Below are positions 1,501 through 19,875 of a DNA stretch of 21,424 nt, piece by piece. Where the stretch lies: positions 1 to 21,424 of IMG/VR virus record IMGVR_UViG_3300044977_000110. One strand, given 5' to 3'. The notes beneath the pieces were generated by a model. The model worked only from the letters and a program-made list of their open reading frames with translations, had not been told where the DNA came from and made no database searches. The first letter of the stretch is position 1. Every line of letters begins with the position of its first letter. Source of the DNA: a virus. A program made the position numbers and the translations under genes.

Positions 1501-1653
1501 ATGAACGTCGCCCTCTACGCCCGCGTCTCCAGATCCACCCCGGTCTCGCATCAGGAGCCGCGCCATTGTTCCACTGTAGGACGGAAAGACTCCCAGGATC
1601 CCGTGCTTCGCAGCGAAGCGGTCGAGGATGACGACCAGGACCGGGGGCAGTAA
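1501..1653 (+). pseudogene. Truncated copy of a serine recombinase N-terminus
   Basis: The 50-codon frame begins 'MNVALYARVS', the standard start of the resolvase/invertase catalytic domain with the nucleophilic serine at residue 10. It then runs into unrelated sequence and stops at 1651-1653. The same opening occurs 163 bases downstream in the intact recombinase (MNLALYARVS). At DNA level 17 bases (1513-1529 and 1676-1692) are identical, and most differences before them are synonymous. It is therefore most simply the remnant of a second recombinase gene, or of a partial duplication of the start of the downstream one. It cannot make an active enzyme. Confidence 0.5.
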
Positions 1654-1663
1654 ACTTCGATCC

Positions 1664-2242
1664 ATGAATCTCGCTCTCTACGCCCGCGTCTCAAAGAATT
1701 GCGTGAAATGTGGCAAGGCTCCCGACCAACACAAACTCGCGAGCCATCTCTACGAGGGGCAGAATCCCGAGGTGCAGCTCCGCGAGCTGAGGGAATGGGC
1801 CCGGCGCCACGGTCACAAGATCGTATTCGAGTACGTCGATCGCCTGAGCGGAAAAGATACCAAGCGCCCCGAGCTGCAGCGGTTGATGCGGGATGCCACA
1901 AAGGGCTTGCGCGACTTCGATGCGGTAGTGGTGTGGAAGCTCGATCGCTTCGGCCGTTCGCAGCGGGATCTCCTCAACCTGGTCGAGGAGTTGAAATGCG
2001 CCAAGGTTGCCTTCATCAGCTTCAGCGAGAATTTCGACCTGACCACAACGATGGGGAAAATGATGTTCGGACTACTGGCCGGATTCGCCGAGATGGAGCG
2101 CAACAATATCAGCGAGCGCACCAAGGCCGGCCTGGCTCTCGCGCGATCGGAAGGCCGCTTACCAGGACCGAAGATTGACCCAAAGAAAGGCCCGAGCCGC
2201 TGGACCATCAATCGGCGCCGGAAACGTGCGGAAGTAGCCTAG
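1664..2242 (+). CDS. Serine recombinase (resolvase/invertase family)
   Basis: This enzyme of 192 residues belongs to the small serine recombinases, which cut and rejoin DNA through a serine-DNA intermediate. Visible signatures are 'YARVS' with Ser10 as nucleophile and Arg8, 'NPEVQLRELREWA' (34-46), 'DRLSGKDTKRPEL' (59-71), 'VVWKLDRFGRS' (89-99) and 'FAEMERNNISERTKAGL' (141-157), which starts the dimer helix. Two things are odd. About 20 extra residues sit between YARVS and the usual QNPE, with C13, C16, H23 and H28 spaced like a small zinc site. The C-terminal HTH normally used for site recognition is missing, leaving only a basic tail. I chose ATG 1664 over the in-frame ATG 1628 because the family starts exactly at MNLALYARVS. 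It could resolve, invert or integrate; no attachment site is identifiable. Confidence 0.85.
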   Translation: MNLALYARVSKNCVKCGKAPDQHKLASHLYEGQNPEVQLRELREWARRHGHKIVFEYVDRLSGKDTKRPELQRLMRDATKGLRDFDAVVVWKLDRFGRSQRDLLNLVEELKCAKVAFISFSENFDLTTTMGKMMFGLLAGFAEMERNNISERTKAGLALARSEGRLPGPKIDPKKGPSRWTINRRRKRAEVA

Positions 2243-10823: not shown

Positions 10824-12092
10824 TTGGCCAACGTAATCCTTACCAACCAGGAGATTAGTTACAAGAACCTGATGGTGCTTGAGAACTCGATCTCGTTCAC
10901 CAAAAAGGTCGTCCGCCGCTACGACGACAAATTCGGGCGCGCGGGCGCAAAGATCGGCTACATCCTGAACATCCGCAAACCCGCCCGCTCCGTCTCAACC
11001 GCTGGGCAAGGCATCCAGCTTCAGGACTACATCGAGCGCTCGGTGCCCCTGGTGCTCAACAAGCAGTACCAGCAGGCCTGCGCCTTCACCTCCAGCGATC
11101 TTTCGCTCTCACTCGACGATTTCACCAACCGGGTGACGAAGCCGAAGATCGTGCAACTTGCCAACGACATCGACTACGACGGCCTGCAGCAGTTCATCAA
11201 CGTGCCGGCAGAAGTGGGGACGCCCGGAACGGTACCATCCTCCGCAGACACGTATCTGAACGTCCTGCAGGTGTTGGCCGATGAAGCCTTCCCGGTCGAC
11301 GATGAGGAAGGATTGTCCCTGCATATTTCACCGCGTATGCAGCGCAGCATTTTCCCGGCACTTCAAGGTCTCGTAGCAACCGGCTCCGGCACCGCGAGTT
11401 TCGCATTCCTGCGGAACCTGGCGAAGGGCGAGGGCGGCGGCGAGGACTTCTATAAAGGCCTGGTCGCAAAGGGCCTCGGCTTTGACTGGTTCATGACCCA
11501 GAACGCGCCGACGTTCACCACCGGCACTCAGGGCGGAACCCCGGTAGTCGACGGCGGAAGCCAGACCGGCAGCTCCATCCTGTCGAGTGGCTGGACGGCT
11601 TCGACGAACGTATTGAACCAGGGCGACATCATCACTTTCGCCGGAGTTCACAGAATCAACCCGCTGACCCGCCAGTCCACAGGTGACCTGCGACCCTTCG
11701 TGGTGACCGCGTCAGTGACCTCGAACGGCTCGGGAGTTGCCACGATCCCGATTGCCTGCGTCGACGGAGACGGCATCACCCTGGCCGGTCCTTACCAGAC
11801 GGTCGATGCTTCCCCGGCAGGGAACGCAGCCATCACCGTTTCTGGTGCCAGTGCTGTGACCAGCTACCGCGGCGTCGGATTCCATCCGGAAGCCTTCACC
11901 TTCGGCTGCGCGGATCTCGAAATGTATGAGAACCAGCACATGATGGAGATGGCGGCCGATAAAGAACTCGGCCTCGCGATCCGCATGTGGGCCCAGCCGG
12001 ACATCAATACCGACCGGCTCCTGATGCGTCTCGACGTGCTCGGCGGCTGGCTGACCATGTATCCGCAGGCGGCTGTCCGCATCGCAAGCTAA
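10824..12092 (+). CDS. Major capsid protein, P22 coat type
   Basis: This 422-residue protein is close to the 430 of P22 gp5 and starts at a TTG eight bases after AGGAG (10811-10815). The N-terminal part 'LTNQEISYKNLMVLENSI', then 'GAKIGYILNIRKPAR' (41-55) and 'DLSLSLDDFTNRVTKPKI' are typical of this branch of HK97-fold coat proteins. Residues about 225-345 are a beta-rich insertion with many Gly, Thr and Ser, in the place of the P22 telokin-like I-domain. The C-terminus returns to the core. A perfect hairpin follows the stop. High expression is likely. Confidence 0.92.
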   Translation: MANVILTNQEISYKNLMVLENSISFTKKVVRRYDDKFGRAGAKIGYILNIRKPARSVSTAGQGIQLQDYIERSVPLVLNKQYQQACAFTSSDLSLSLDDFTNRVTKPKIVQLANDIDYDGLQQFINVPAEVGTPGTVPSSADTYLNVLQVLADEAFPVDDEEGLSLHISPRMQRSIFPALQGLVATGSGTASFAFLRNLAKGEGGGEDFYKGLVAKGLGFDWFMTQNAPTFTTGTQGGTPVVDGGSQTGSSILSSGWTASTNVLNQGDIITFAGVHRINPLTRQSTGDLRPFVVTASVTSNGSGVATIPIACVDGDGITLAGPYQTVDASPAGNAAITVSGASAVTSYRGVGFHPEAFTFGCADLEMYENQHMMEMAADKELGLAIRMWAQPDINTDRLLMRLDVLGGWLTMYPQAAVRIAS

Positions 12093-13567: not shown

Positions 13568-13879
13568 ATGGCAACAGAAAACTACAATCTCGAAGACCCC
13601 GCGGCACAGGAGCAGATTCGCCGCGGCCACCACGAATACCTACCCACCGCCGGCAAACATGGCCGCTACCAGAAAACCCAGTGGATTCGCGGTCCCCAGA
13701 ACGACTATCCGAAGATGATGGGGAAAGCCCCGGCTCCGAAGATGGCCGATTTCAAAGGCAAGCCCGACGCGCAGCAACTCTTCGATCAGGCGATGAAGGA
13801 GTGGGACACGTACATGACCTCGACCATCGTCCGCAATAAAGCGGAAGAGCAGGCCTGGCTCAAGGCGAACGCCGCCTAG
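13568..13879 (+). CDS. Hypothetical charged protein
   Basis: This protein of 103 residues has AGGAG (13557-13561) six bases before the ATG. It is polar, with 'EEQAWLKANAA' at the C-terminus and a central proline-, glycine- and lysine-rich stretch. Charge and length resemble the 13087 gene, and both end in a Glu/Ala/Lys helix, so they may be distant relatives or similar head-associated proteins. Its TAG and the TAG of the minus-strand gene share two bases in a CTAG palindrome at 13876-13879. Confidence 0.6.
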   Translation: MATENYNLEDPAAQEQIRRGHHEYLPTAGKHGRYQKTQWIRGPQNDYPKMMGKAPAPKMADFKGKPDAQQLFDQAMKEWDTYMTSTIVRNKAEEQAWLKANAA

Positions 13880-14130
13880 GGTCGCTTCGGTGAAGGCTGG
13901 GACGCTCTTGCTGGCGTCATTAGACTCCCGTCCTTCATCACGGCGCGGACGAAGCCAACACACTCCGCGCACAGCATCCAGTCGAGCACCCGGTCCCAGC
14001 CTTTCGGTGTCGGGTAGAGCCATGCGGGATCGGCGCTCTTGCGAATCTCGGCCTCTGCGGGAATTCCCAGAGTTGTGACCTGAACCTCTGGACTCTCTTT
14101 ACGGCAACGGTCGCACCGGACGATGAACAT
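13876..14130 (-). CDS. Small CxxC...CxxC zinc-binding protein on the minus strand
   Basis: The 84-residue protein has Cys6/Cys9 ('RCDRCRKE') and Cys54/Cys57 ('MLCAECVGF'), consistent with one structural zinc, with the intervening region containing 'WLYPTPKGWDRVLDW'. This layout is common in small phage and host proteins written as 'C..C....P.gW......lC..C'. It is convergent with the 13568 gene and divergent from the 14147 microprotein, with 16 bases between the divergent starts. No strong Shine-Dalgarno is visible. Function unknown. Confidence 0.6.
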   Translation of the reverse strand: MFIVRCDRCRKESPEVQVTTLGIPAEAEIRKSADPAWLYPTPKGWDRVLDWMLCAECVGFVRAVMKDGSLMTPARASQPSPKRP

Positions 14131-15750: not shown

Positions 15751-16563
15751 ATGCCAGTCCTCCCTCCATCGAATCCCCTAGCTCTCTCTGCGCAGGACTT
15801 CATCAAGTCCGCACTGCGCCTGGTGGGAGCGCTACGTTCTGGGTTGAATCTCACCAAGGATGAGTTGAATGACTCGCTATTGGTCCTCAACTCGATGCTC
15901 GATGCCTTCTCAATCGAGCGCACGCAGATTCCCGCGGTCAGCATCGTCTCAACCAACACTGCGCAGGTTCCGCTGACGCTCGTCGCCAATCAAGCGTCCT
16001 ACAAACTGGGGAATGTGCTCGGCACGGAAGATTTCCTGTTACCCCGTCCCTCGCGTCTGGAGCGCGTTTCCATTATGTACTCGGCCTCGCAATCCACCCC
16101 GGTCGAGTTGCCGATGGAGATGCTGAACAACCAGCAGTGGCAGGGGATCACCAACAAGTCGACGACTTCCCTTCTCCCGCAAGTTTGCTTCGTGGATAAA
16201 TCGGAGACGGTTTTCCCGGACATGCTGCTGTACTTCTGGCCGATCCCGACGCAGGCGAACCCGGTGATTCTCTACCTGTGGCAGCTACTCCAGCAGTTCA
16301 CGAGTCTCACCGCGCAGTTCTTGTTCCCGCCGGGCTACGCGGAGATGCTGCGCTACCAGTTGGCGGTGAGGCTGGCGGCGGAATTTCCCTGCGACCTGCA
16401 GAAATTCCAGATCGTGCAGAAGTCGGCGGCGGATGCGAAAGATCGAATCTCCAGCCAGAATGTGGAAGCGCAAGTCGCAGTCTGCGATGAAGCCATCGTG
16501 GGATCGAACGGGAAGATGGGGAACATCTTTACGGGGACGGCGAACCGGTCACTCAGGTACTAG
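15751..16563 (+). CDS. Tail accessory factor, P22 gp4 type
   Basis: The 270-residue protein lies where P22 gp4 does, between the coat region and the gp10-like gene. Its N-terminus has the family's helical opening 'AQDFIKSALRLVGAL' and 'LNDSLLVLNSMLDAFSIERT' (short helix, L-x-x-L-N-x-M-L-x-x-[FW]). A central beta part follows, with 'PVILYLW' in place of the usual F-x-[LF]-[YW]-P-x-P stretch, then a C-terminal helix 'MLRYQLAVRLAAEFPCD'. gp4 binds under the portal ring to close the filled head and hold the tail. The protein is longer than P22 gp4 (166 aa), as in many relatives. Its 3' end overlaps the minus-strand gene by 11 bases. Confidence 0.75.
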   Translation: MPVLPPSNPLALSAQDFIKSALRLVGALRSGLNLTKDELNDSLLVLNSMLDAFSIERTQIPAVSIVSTNTAQVPLTLVANQASYKLGNVLGTEDFLLPRPSRLERVSIMYSASQSTPVELPMEMLNNQQWQGITNKSTTSLLPQVCFVDKSETVFPDMLLYFWPIPTQANPVILYLWQLLQQFTSLTAQFLFPPGYAEMLRYQLAVRLAAEFPCDLQKFQIVQKSAADAKDRISSQNVEAQVAVCDEAIVGSNGKMGNIFTGTANRSLRY

Positions 16564-16888
16564 GGATGGAGTTCCGCATTGTGGGGCGATACGCTCGCAA
16601 CGCTCTATGGATGTCGAGCGAGCTTTCGCTGTAGTACTCGGCGTAAGAGCCGATTTTGACCTGAACCAGCTCCTGGTCGAATTTGCGTGACGCTACTTCG
16701 ATAAATCTGAATTTCTCCTTCAAGAGTGCCAGTGATTCCATCGTGATCCATTCAAGCGTGCCATCGAAGCGACAGGGGATGACCAGTTTTTTGGGAAAGC
16801 TCCATACCCGATTGAACGGGATCGCTTCACCGAGCGTGACGCCAATCGCACCCATGCCGAGTAATTTGATAAATCGCCGCCGATCCAT
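16553..16888 (-). CDS. Small protein with Tat-like signal, minus strand
   Basis: The 111-residue protein begins 'MDRRRFIKLLGMGAIGVTLG', a good twin-arginine motif (RRxF-[IL]-K) followed by a hydrophobic h-region of glycine and leucine. No AxA site is obvious, so it might stay anchored. The rest ('WSFPKKLVIPCRFDG', then mixed charge and 'AEYYSESSLDIHRALRAYRP') matches no cofactor-binding family I know, which is odd because Tat substrates usually carry one. It occupies the whole space between two tail genes and its ATG lies 16 bases from the divergent start of the 16905 gene. It is probably expressed separately from the late operon. Confidence 0.65.
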   Translation of the reverse strand: MDRRRFIKLLGMGAIGVTLGEAIPFNRVWSFPKKLVIPCRFDGTLEWITMESLALLKEKFRFIEVASRKFDQELVQVKIGSYAEYYSESSLDIHRALRAYRPTMRNSIPST

Positions 16889-16904
16889 GGAGACAGTCTA
16901 GCAA

Positions 16905-18719
16905 ATGAGATTCGGGTTCGTCGGCCCCGCGTATCTTTTCGCCAGCCCTTTGGTCGCGGCGGAGCAGTTGATCAACTGGCGTCCGATCAAAGCGGAATCA
17001 CCCAATGCGCGCACGGCCTTCGCCCTACTCCCCACTTCGGGCCTGAGCCTGTTCGCGAACCTCGCTGCCGAGATCAGCGGCGGACTACCGTCGGTGCGCG
17101 GCGAGTGGACGGGAAACGGGCGAGCCTTCTGCGTCTCGGGAACGCATCTATTTGAAGTGAACGCCCTGGGCGGGGTGACGGACTACGGGGACAACAGCGT
17201 CGCCAATAACAATATCGAAGATGACGGATTACCGGCGACGCTGGTAGCGGGTGGAACCGTCGGTGGAGTGATTCTCGGCAACGCCCAGAAGATTCTCGGC
17301 GCAATCATCTCCAGTCCCACGACGGCGGCCATCACGGTAGCCTCGGGCGCGGGATTCGCTGCAAATGCCAATGCCGTCCTCGCAGGCATCACCAACCCGC
17401 TTTTTGCGCAGCTCAATGGCACGTGGCAAGTCGCTTCCATCGTGGGAAATGTCGTCAATCTCACCACTTCCGGGCTCACGGTCGAACCACAAACGGCACT
17501 GACCGCGGGAACTGCGACGCCGAGCAGCGTCGGCGCTGGGGCCTATCCATCACAATTGCTCATCTGCTCGGGCGGAAATCTGACCGTTTTCTCACTCTCC
17601 TCGAATGCCTTCCAGCCGCTGACAACTCCGCCGGCCGACAATTTGATGGTCGATTTCCTCGACGGCTACTTCATCGCCCTGCAGGCAAATAACACCTTCA
17701 GCATCTCGAATCCCGAAGATGCGACGACCTGGCCCGGCTTATCTCTCTCCCAGGTGCAGGTTTTCTCCGATCAGCTTTTGGCGATCATCGCAGCCAATCG
17801 CCTGCTTTGCGTCTTTGGCTCGAAACGCGCGGTCTTTTACTACACCTCGGGCGCGCCGATTTTCCCCTTGGACGTGGTCAGCGGCGGATTCATGGAAGTC
17901 GGCATCGTTGCGCAATTCTCCGCGGCGCGCATCGCTACGCGGCAGGGTACAACCATTCTGTGGCTCGGGGGTGATGAACGCGGCCAGGGCGTGGTTTACG
18001 CCGCAAACGGTTTCGTGCCGCAACGGGTGTCGGATTCCGCGTTTGAGTACTGGATGTCGCAGCAGACGACGATTTCTGATGCCGTGGGGATGGCGCGGCA
18101 GGAAGAGGGCCAGAACTTCTACGATCTCTGGTTCCCTTCCGCGAATGCGACCTGGACGCTCGATATTGATCTCGGCTGGTGGCACCGGCGCTCATCCCTG
18201 GTGAACGGAGTCGAAGCGGCCCACCTGCAGCGCTCCCATATGAATGCCTTCGGTTTTCACCTGATCGGAGACCGGACCAGCGGCAACGTCTACAAGCTGA
18301 GCGCGAACTTCCCGACGGACAATGGCACGCCCATTCTGCGTACTCGAGTGGGACCGACGATCGAGAACGAAGGTGGTCAGATCACGGTCCCCATCAACGA
18401 ATTTCAGGTGGATTTTGAAACCGGACTCGGGCCAATCCCGCCCCTGACGGACGGCTTCGGCAATCCCCGCGATCCCTACGCGATGTTTTCCTACTCGGAA
18501 GATTACGGAAAGACCTGGACGCCGGAAAGACAGATCGCGTGCGGTCAGGCGGGAAACTCGAAAGTCGTCGCCATTGACCGGCGGCTCGGGAGCTGGCGGA
18601 GCTGGACGCCTCGAGTCAGAGTCTCCGACCCGATCCAGTGGCGCATCGCCGATGCCTACACGAATTCGACGCAAGATCAGAAGAAGCGGCTGGCGAAGAG
18701 CCTGGCGGAGATCAGCTAA
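16905..18719 (+). CDS. DNA-stabilisation tail protein, P22 gp10 type
   Basis: This is 604 residues of a beta-propeller-like protein. The N-terminus 'GPAYLFASPLVAAEQLINWR' and 'ALLPTSGLSL' is the family's opening. Later motifs include 'DFLDGYFIALQANNTFSISN' (about 250-269), a conserved 'PVWPGLS'-type strand, 'RLLCVFGSKRAVFYYTSG', and 'VVSGGFMEVGIVAQFSAAR', which match the gp10 signature of G-S-x-x-[AE] and P-x-[DE]-V-x-x-G-G. gp10 binds beneath gp4 and holds DNA in the head. An insertion of about 85 residues (128-213), Thr/Ala/Gly-rich with 'LNGTWQVASIVGNVVNL', makes it longer than P22 gp10 (472 aa). It ends in a lysine-rich tail. Confidence 0.8.
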   Translation: MRFGFVGPAYLFASPLVAAEQLINWRPIKAESPNARTAFALLPTSGLSLFANLAAEISGGLPSVRGEWTGNGRAFCVSGTHLFEVNALGGVTDYGDNSVANNNIEDDGLPATLVAGGTVGGVILGNAQKILGAIISSPTTAAITVASGAGFAANANAVLAGITNPLFAQLNGTWQVASIVGNVVNLTTSGLTVEPQTALTAGTATPSSVGAGAYPSQLLICSGGNLTVFSLSSNAFQPLTTPPADNLMVDFLDGYFIALQANNTFSISNPEDATTWPGLSLSQVQVFSDQLLAIIAANRLLCVFGSKRAVFYYTSGAPIFPLDVVSGGFMEVGIVAQFSAARIATRQGTTILWLGGDERGQGVVYAANGFVPQRVSDSAFEYWMSQQTTISDAVGMARQEEGQNFYDLWFPSANATWTLDIDLGWWHRRSSLVNGVEAAHLQRSHMNAFGFHLIGDRTSGNVYKLSANFPTDNGTPILRTRVGPTIENEGGQITVPINEFQVDFETGLGPIPPLTDGFGNPRDPYAMFSYSEDYGKTWTPERQIACGQAGNSKVVAIDRRLGSWRSWTPRVRVSDPIQWRIADAYTNSTQDQKKRLAKSLAEIS

Positions 18720-18733
18720 TGGTAGTTCTTTAG

Positions 18734-19297
18734 ATGACCCAGCAGCCCACGCGCGAATTACTGGACACGATTGTCCCGCAGGACTGGGATAGCCAGAAAC
18801 CCGGCGCGAACACAGGTTTCTCGCGCACGCGCTGGTTGCAGGGAGTCAGTGACCTGGTCAAGCGGCCGGTGGTGAATCGCGGAACAGCCTCGACCTCCGC
18901 CACCGCAGTAGTGCCGGACGGTGCGATCGTCTCCAGCGGAGTCGGGACGCCCAACCCGCTCACGCCGAAACGCTATGCGGAGTTCACGGTCAAAGCGCGT
19001 GTCACCTATTCCGTCAATACCCCGTCGGATGTGTACGTCTACGTTCATCGCACCGCAGGCGCAATCCCCGCCAATGGCTCACCACCAAACGCAGACGACG
19101 TGATCGTGGGAGGCGACGCCTTCGCCGGCGGCCATGTTTCTGCAGCGGGCGTGAATGAGATCGGGACACTCTCTTTTCTCGATACGAACCTCAGCGTGAA
19201 CGGAAAATATAACTATTACCTGTCGGTGAAAGCGCCAAGCGGCGCCACAGTGAACCTGACAAATTCTTCGCAGTTGCTGGTCATGGAGCGCAGCTAG
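18734..19297 (+). CDS. Beta-rich tail-region structural protein
   Basis: The 187-residue protein starts at ATG 18734 without a clear Shine-Dalgarno. The first 50 residues are polar, with 'DWDSQKPGANTGFSRTRWLQ'. The rest is a beta domain with strands 'RYAEFTVKARVTYSVNT', 'DVYVYVHRTAG' and 'KYNYYLSVKAPSGATVNLT', as in Ig-like or carbohydrate-binding modules. No signal peptide. The place after gp10 fits a minor tail component. Its TAG overlaps the GTG of the sulfotransferase-like gene by one base. Confidence 0.6.
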   Translation: MTQQPTRELLDTIVPQDWDSQKPGANTGFSRTRWLQGVSDLVKRPVVNRGTASTSATAVVPDGAIVSSGVGTPNPLTPKRYAEFTVKARVTYSVNTPSDVYVYVHRTAGAIPANGSPPNADDVIVGGDAFAGGHVSAAGVNEIGTLSFLDTNLSVNGKYNYYLSVKAPSGATVNLTNSSQLLVMERS

Positions 19298-19875
19298 TGA
19301 TCACGATCGTCTCAGGGCTGCCACGCTCCGGCACTTCGATGATGATGCAGATGCTCACTGCCGGCGGGATGAAGATTCACGCCGAGAACGAGCACACCGC
19401 CGACACCTACAACCCCCGCGGATATTTTGAGTGGTTGCGAGTCAAGGAACTGCAGGAGAATCCGGAGCTGATCGCGGAGGCCGAAGACAAGGCGGTGAAG
19501 GTGTTCTCGCCCTTTCTGCCATTTCTCTCACCCGAACACGACTACCAGGTCCTGTTGATGCAGCGGCCGCTCGCGGAAGTTCTGAGATCGCAGGCCGAGA
19601 TCCTGCGCGGCGACAACAAGAAGCAGGAACCCAAAGCAGACCCGAAAGCCGTCCAGCAGGCATTTCAGTGGCACCTCACCAACGTCGATGAATGGCAGGA
19701 GAGCCGGCCGAATATGCGTTTTCTGCGCGTGGACTACCATTCCGTCCTCCGTGAGCCGGAAGTGATCGCCAGAGAGATCGCTGTTTTTCTGAACCGGCCG
19801 CTGAAGATCGAAGCCATGGCCGAACAAGTGGATCCGAAACTCTACCGCGTTCGACTGGAATTGGCGCATGCCTGA
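19297..19875 (+). CDS. Sulfotransferase-like protein
   Basis: This protein of 192 residues opens 'MITIVSGLPRSGTSMMMQML', the PAPS-binding P-loop ('G-[LF]-P-R-S-G-T') of the sulfotransferase family, which transfers sulfate from PAPS to a hydroxyl or amine. It also has 'NPRGYFE' (39-45), 'KAVKVFSPFLPFL' (65-77) and 'LLMQRPLAEVLRSQ' (86-99), whose Arg90 and Ser98 correspond to the 3'-phosphate-binding pair. It is short for a bacterial sulfotransferase, which is often 250-300 residues. The tight overlap with genes on both sides means it is expressed with the tail operon. It may modify a virion protein, capsular sugar or lipopolysaccharide; the substrate is unknown. Confidence 0.8.
   Translation: MITIVSGLPRSGTSMMMQMLTAGGMKIHAENEHTADTYNPRGYFEWLRVKELQENPELIAEAEDKAVKVFSPFLPFLSPEHDYQVLLMQRPLAEVLRSQAEILRGDNKKQEPKADPKAVQQAFQWHLTNVDEWQESRPNMRFLRVDYHSVLREPEVIAREIAVFLNRPLKIEAMAEQVDPKLYRVRLELAHA

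Follow-up and report, generated by a model that had tools for sequence, protein, structure and literature searches.

The Tab protein of the Pseudomonas prophage JBD26 is encoded on the minus strand under its own promoter, is expressed constitutively from the prophage and blocks the virion assembly of invading phages (PMC10884400). Tai systems (PMC11364771) are likewise carried by mobile elements and block virion assembly, with tail assembly as their target. SaPI CpmA and CpmB (PMC5644958) and the PLE protein TcaP (PMC10945586) are mobile-element proteins that act on the capsid assembly of another phage, redirecting capsid size for the satellite as a scaffold or external cage.

Here we describe a phage gene that invites comparison with these systems. 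It was found in a 21,424-nucleotide stretch of virus DNA, called the window below (IMG/VR record IMGVR_UViG_3300044977_000110), and we are highly confident that it belongs to an apparently undescribed family in which a constant Tat-type head of about 38 residues is joined to exchangeable tails. Neither this family nor any other phage proteins that join a constant head to variable tails made of virion-protein fragments were found described in the libraries and open-access papers searched, a scope that leaves subscription papers and preprints outside. Like tab, the gene is small, lies on the minus strand among the late genes of an apparently temperate phage and has its own promoter, here predicted. 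An assembly-blocking role, here proposed, would also be common to both; the likeness is one of layout and working, and no sequence relation is claimed. Tab differs in its target, the tape measure protein, and no signal head or virion-fragment tail has been described for it; its fixed place between terminase genes and its known anti-Tab partner also set it apart from the new family. Tai systems are not described as captured virion fragments, and CpmA, CpmB and TcaP have no Tat-type head and are not hypervariable chimeras, although action on the capsid assembly of another phage is what we propose here as well.

The features of the window on which the argument draws are the following.

1,628–2,242, plus strand: short serine recombinase (PF00239, E = 4.2e-42), a sign of a temperate life style.
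10,824–12,092, plus strand: the phage's own P22-type coat protein (phrog_283, E = 1.7e-56).
15,751–16,563, plus strand: SU10-type adaptor (gp4-like) neighbour, tail to tail with the gene (PF24175, E = 1.7e-7; phrog_12985, E = 8.6e-33).
16,553–16,888, minus strand: the gene itself, with a constant Tat-type head and a coat-like tail (111 aa; 54 distinct relatives).
16,553–16,774, minus strand: variable tail, residues 39–111 plus stop; the close relative L019 has an unrelated tail at the same place.
16,664–16,759, minus strand: segment like the coat N-arm, residues 44–75 (the EWITMESLALLKEKFRFIEVASRKFDQELVQV region), matching coat profile positions 7–38 (i-E = 4e-5) inside a predicted helix at residues 50–78.
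16,775–16,888, minus strand: constant head, residues 1–38, with MDRRRFIK, a hydrophobic stretch and AIPFNRVWSFPKKLVIP (supported by alignments, dN/dS of 0.24 and 15.5 bits against TIGR01409; predicted helix at residues 3–22).
16,895–16,900, minus strand: TAGACT, a −10-like box of the extended type, which one base separates from an upstream TG and 6 nt from the ATG.
16,905–18,719, plus strand: head-closure Hc3-like (gp10-like) neighbour, head to head with the gene (phrog_578, E = 3.7e-68).

The 111-residue product begins MDRRRFIKLLGMGAIGVTLGEAIPFNRVWSFPKKLVIP. The 3′ ends of its reading frame and of the adaptor gene overlap by 11 nt, while 16 nt separate the divergent start codons of the frame and the Hc3 gene. 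An earlier note, made from the sequence alone, had placed a minus-strand gene of this length between the gp4-like and gp10-like genes, and both the coordinates and the 54 homologues confirm it; these homologues and the dN/dS of the head rule out a chance open reading frame. No Pfam domain or PHROG family scored above its cut-off with the window protein, and the AF2 model, which consists of isolated helices (pTM 0.28), was too uncertain for a fold search. Elsewhere in the window, a second possible antisense frame (13,876–14,130, minus strand; 84 aa) with two CxxC pairs lies inside the virion module, and a P-loop, sulfotransferase-like protein (MITIVSGLPRSGTSMMMQML...; 19,297–19,875, plus strand) that is conserved in L019 and L016 is encoded amid the virion genes.

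A scan of IMG/VR with the window protein returned 16 relatives, and scans for RVWSFP codons added many more, for a total of 54 distinct members once one unrelated frame had been removed; an independent scan yielded two members beyond these. Because the RVWSFP motif had itself served as a seed, the scan was repeated with the upstream stretch GIALEQAIP. Of the 23 members recovered in this way, 21 carry RVWSFP, one RAWSFP and one RIWSFP, and the conservation of the motif is therefore not an artefact of seeding. Among GenBank phages and plasmids there was no relative of the window gene. One member (L087/L186) resides in a betaproteobacterial MAG contig, which is probably a phage contig because it carries the same Hc3 neighbour. 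Two members, L040 and L019, are short, one having only about 49 residues and the other 67. Two RVWSFP genes whose coat-like tails differ are present in each of four contigs (L011, L033, L052 and L069), in direct tandem in L033 and L069, and the start of another contig (L012:1-168) resembles the tail of a second gene copy.

The head shared by complete members follows the pattern MxRRxFLxLLGxGVAGIALEQAIP[FL][NG]RVWSFPKxIVI, that is, a Tat-type signal followed by the near-invariant RVWSFP motif. R3, R4 and F6 are invariant across 44 aligned members, in keeping with the twin-arginine form RRxF[LIMFV], and the median dN/dS of the head (0.24 over 682 pairs) indicates that it is under purifying selection. 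The homologues thus exist, and the complete ones keep both the twin arginine and the hydrophobic segment that the earlier note had emphasized. Its interpretation of the head as a strong Tat signal is only partly supported. With E ≤ 1 as the limit, the NCBIfam TAT model TIGR01409 recognizes 28 of 44 members, but the copy in the window falls just under the cut-off of this model (15.5 versus 16.7 bits) and well under that of the Pfam TAT_signal model PF10518 (13.1 versus 22.7 bits). Moreover, the uncharged stretch spans only 11–12 residues, and inspection by eye revealed no clear AxA-like signal-peptidase site after the hydrophobic stretch. Uncleaved Tat anchors do exist. Compared with Tat-signal proteins as modelled by TIGR01409 and PF10518, the family is alike in its MxRRxFLK head and hydrophobic stretch and differs by the RVWSFP block, the lack of a clear cleavage site and the coat-like tails.

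Beyond the head, the sequences of the members look unrelated to one another. Using 1,466 proteins predicted from the phages of the family, we made a profile of each protein family that had four or more members (36 in total) and compared these profiles with 53 tails, with 1,113 tails that had been shuffled or reversed, and with 265 translations of the tail DNA in other frames. The profile of the P22-type coat protein matched 24 of the 53 tails at i-E < 0.01 but did not match a single shuffled or reversed tail or any translation in another frame (Fisher p = 1e-21 for tails versus other frames). Coat is strongly over-represented among the 36 families; the other matches are few (adaptor 2, Hc3 1, ejection protein 1, portal 1 and the small protein family F14 1), the remaining profiled families match no tail, and fewer than half of all tails show a significant match to a virion protein. 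Because the coat matches occur in the sense frame only, the tails are not antisense by-products of a neighbouring gene; where other families match in other frames, genuine overlapping genes seem to be the cause.

Several further comparisons bear on the resemblance. When two held-out members were compared with the coat profile, L262 matched (i-E = 9e-6) and L265 did not, and a search of the same profile against 25,498 six-frame open reading frames returned, besides coats and coat ends, mostly genes of the RVWSFP family. The adaptor matches receive independent support from PF24175, which matches two tails (best E = 4e-4). The tail of L022 is 47% identical over 45 residues to the capsid protein of its own phage, which is of a different type (E = 1.2e-7), and DFEWDDYEAAVKAERS is common to the tail of L070 and a coat. 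When single tails were scanned against PHROG, matches were few, the best being phrog_1357, major head, for the L022/L008 tail (E = 0.005); the L021/L006 tail matched phrog_283 with E = 0.033. Some tails may be mosaics: one in L033 (L033_5225) combines coat 95–152 with a weak portal match (0.02), that of L053 combines ejection (1e-4) and portal (0.007) matches, and that of L035 holds two coat pieces out of order, although the second, weaker pieces are no more than suggestive. The terminase-like motif found in 7 tails and in 0 of 1,113 controls is a lead only, as its pattern was written after the tails had been viewed, and the TerL profile matched none of the 53 tails below 0.01. Small proteins that lack the RVWSFP head and end like a coat C terminus (IRAWDPVFGGYILRFDSVF and similar) occur at L215:11408-11920, L248:3150-3584 and L255:13326-13709, and fragment capture may extend more widely than this family.

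The coat-like segments, of 17–60 residues, correspond to N-arm, P-domain, insertion-domain or C-terminal parts of the P22-type coat (phrog_283); the tails differ from it in being fragments, sometimes out of order, and never a whole HK97-fold coat. Nineteen of 25 coat segments lie within coat positions 1–60 or 369–411, a quarter of the coat length (p = 1.3e-7), with segments ending just beyond position 60 assigned by midpoint. The others lie at 82–152 and 238–268, and none at 153–237 or 269–368. This clustering does not reflect a conservation bias of the profile, since test windows taken from coats with under 45% identity to the training set were detected with a power of 0.71–1.0 everywhere along the coat; the clustering could stem either from function or from recombination close to the ends of genes. 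The N-arm (D14, E15, E18) and R101 of P22 touch the scaffolding protein (PMC9965877), and the family coat is compared with P22 gp5 here by region rather than by aligned residue. In the window, where the tail resembles the coat N-arm, the phage's own coat ranks only 25th of 32, those of other phages being more alike, and the tail is therefore not a copy of its own coat. Likewise, only 3 of 20 members (L029, L047 and L171) match their own coat best, yet this coat is not avoided (mean rank fraction 0.33).

The tail behaves as an exchanged cassette, as judged from phages with nearly identical flanks. Specifically, the DNA of L164 and L180 shows 94.0% identity over the 667 bp ending at codon 36 and 93.7% over 1,502 bp beyond the tail, whereas the tails between these flanks (103 versus 228 bp) are completely different. 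The window and L019 show the same arrangement at greater distance, with flanks 77% and 81% identical in DNA and unrelated tails, while the end of the window tail has 56 bp in common with the tail of L174 at 79% identity. The earlier note had correctly recognized a real antisense gene with a twin-arginine head, which proves to be conserved in many phages, but had missed its coat-like, hypervariable and swapped tail.

Orientation against the late genes, also noted earlier, holds throughout: the gene is antisense to them in all 48 members with recognisable late genes (six were not scorable). Its exact place is only partly fixed, as 11 members lie between the adaptor and Hc3 genes as in the window and the remainder elsewhere among the late genes, always antisense. 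Upstream of the start codon, TAnnnT occurs at a distance of 4–10 nt in 32 of 51 members (in 30 cases at 6 or 7 nt), compared with 5.1 ± 2.0 in shuffles and 6 of 314 control genes; Shine-Dalgarno motifs were not enriched among the members examined. The window copy reads TGcTAGACT, 6 nt, then ATG, and a generic scan of this region, which demands a −35 box, found no promoter. A leaderless signature with this −10 placement has been described for a set including Acidobacteria (PMC3160421), and the gene is predicted usually to have its own promoter of the leaderless type.

Most phages of the family look temperate, since a recombinase is encoded in 21 of the 24 records examined (a tyrosine integrase in 15 and a serine recombinase in 6). 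The two kinds never occur together among these 24 related records, as if mutually replacing. Transcription during lysogeny fits the promoter and recombinase evidence. A search of prophage hosts in Acidobacteriota found the gene in 0 of 396, a weak test with limited candidates scored per genome and no positive control. In about nine members, a small late-strand protein, F14, is encoded head to head with the RVWSFP gene (L164:261-545, L180:10302-10586, L246:4760-5056, L235:5991-6410); it is not beside the gene in the window. F14 and some tails have a segment like coat 98–121 in common, and by analogy with anti-Tab, F14 is a candidate counter-protein for the phage's own lytic cycle.

We propose, with a probability of about 0.35, that the gene encodes a virion-protein mimic expressed from the prophage, which blocks the capsid assembly of competing phages and is laid out like Tab. 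The gene would be on in the prophage, and the head would carry the protein to the inner membrane. The tail would imitate an assembly interface (for the window, the N-arm of the coat, to which scaffold binds in P22) and would attach to the coat or scaffold of a superinfecting phage, whose capsid assembly would thereby be blocked. On induction, the gene would be shut down by strong transcription of the late genes opposite it. The tails would change fast because the virion proteins of rivals differ. We favour interference with assembly because the tails imitate virion parts and the layout is Tab-like. It is consistent with coat matches in 24 of 53 tails, in the sense frame only and grouped at coat termini, with the tail swap, the antisense position in 48 of 48, the predicted promoter and recombinases in 21 of 24 records.

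Several observations run against blocked assembly, and some lend themselves to other explanations. If the head drives Tat export, the tail ends outside the cytoplasm, where no capsids assemble. Such export would suit an ordinary lysogenic conversion protein (moron) with a fast-evolving exported domain, as the earlier note had suggested: every complete member has the twin-arginine head, TIGR01409 matches 28 of 44, and an own promoter and antisense position are found in morons. The short uncharged stretch, the lack of a clear cleavage site and the coat-like, swapped tails, which it does not explain, make this quite improbable. More than half of the tails lack a significant virion match, and coat-terminus clustering could also arise by recombination near gene ends. 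Both points touch on the suggestion that only the constant head works, as a small membrane-active or Tat-interacting peptide, for instance in superinfection exclusion at the envelope, with tails as filler from illegitimate recombination near late-gene ends. The head is conserved under purifying selection whereas the tails are not, and the two short members (L040 and L019) also agree with it. Filler, however, would be expected in any frame or orientation, whereas coat matches are sense only (24 of 53 versus 0 of 265) and coat is strongly over-represented among the 36 families; we consider this explanation unlikely.

That no lysogen carrying the gene was found (0 of 396 in the Acidobacteriota search) also counts against assembly blocking, weak as that test is, and so does the fact that the own coat is not avoided, which implies that self-inhibition would need late shut-off or a counter-protein. 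Tails could instead be decoys for host immunity, imitating virion proteins sensed by anti-phage systems (capsid by CapRel, terminase or portal by Avs) and titrating the sensor. Capsid protein is a known trigger (PMC9712102), and coat is what the tails imitate most often. A decoy, however, should resemble the phage's own coat, which is the best match in only 3 of 20 members and ranks 25th of 32 in the window; short fragments might trigger rather than block, and a promoter outside the late programme would not be needed. We judge this a shade less probable than the conversion protein. Finally, a membrane-bound coat-like piece could nucleate or chaperone the phage's own procapsid, as the resemblance of tails to coat parts touching scaffold and the best matches to the own coat in L029, L047 and L171 might suggest. 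Antisense orientation in 48 of 48 means that the protein is not made with the late genes, tails swap between near-identical phages, and most members match another coat better than their own, all of which make such a helper very improbable.

A wider form of the assembly-blocking proposal, which we advance tentatively and with considerable doubt, is that these genes form a heritable anti-rival system at the protein level, in which temperate phages capture and exchange pieces of the virion proteins of other phages behind a constant membrane-targeting head, the tail thereby recording rivals and at the same time giving the interference its specificity. The signature RRxF ... RVWSFP, antisense to late genes, marks a hidden class of genes otherwise annotated, if at all, as Tat-signal proteins. 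If the tails do block assembly, nature would have made swappable inhibitors out of virion-protein fragments, the importance of coat surfaces for assembly would become testable, and the record left by competition among phages would let one read which of them had been rivals.
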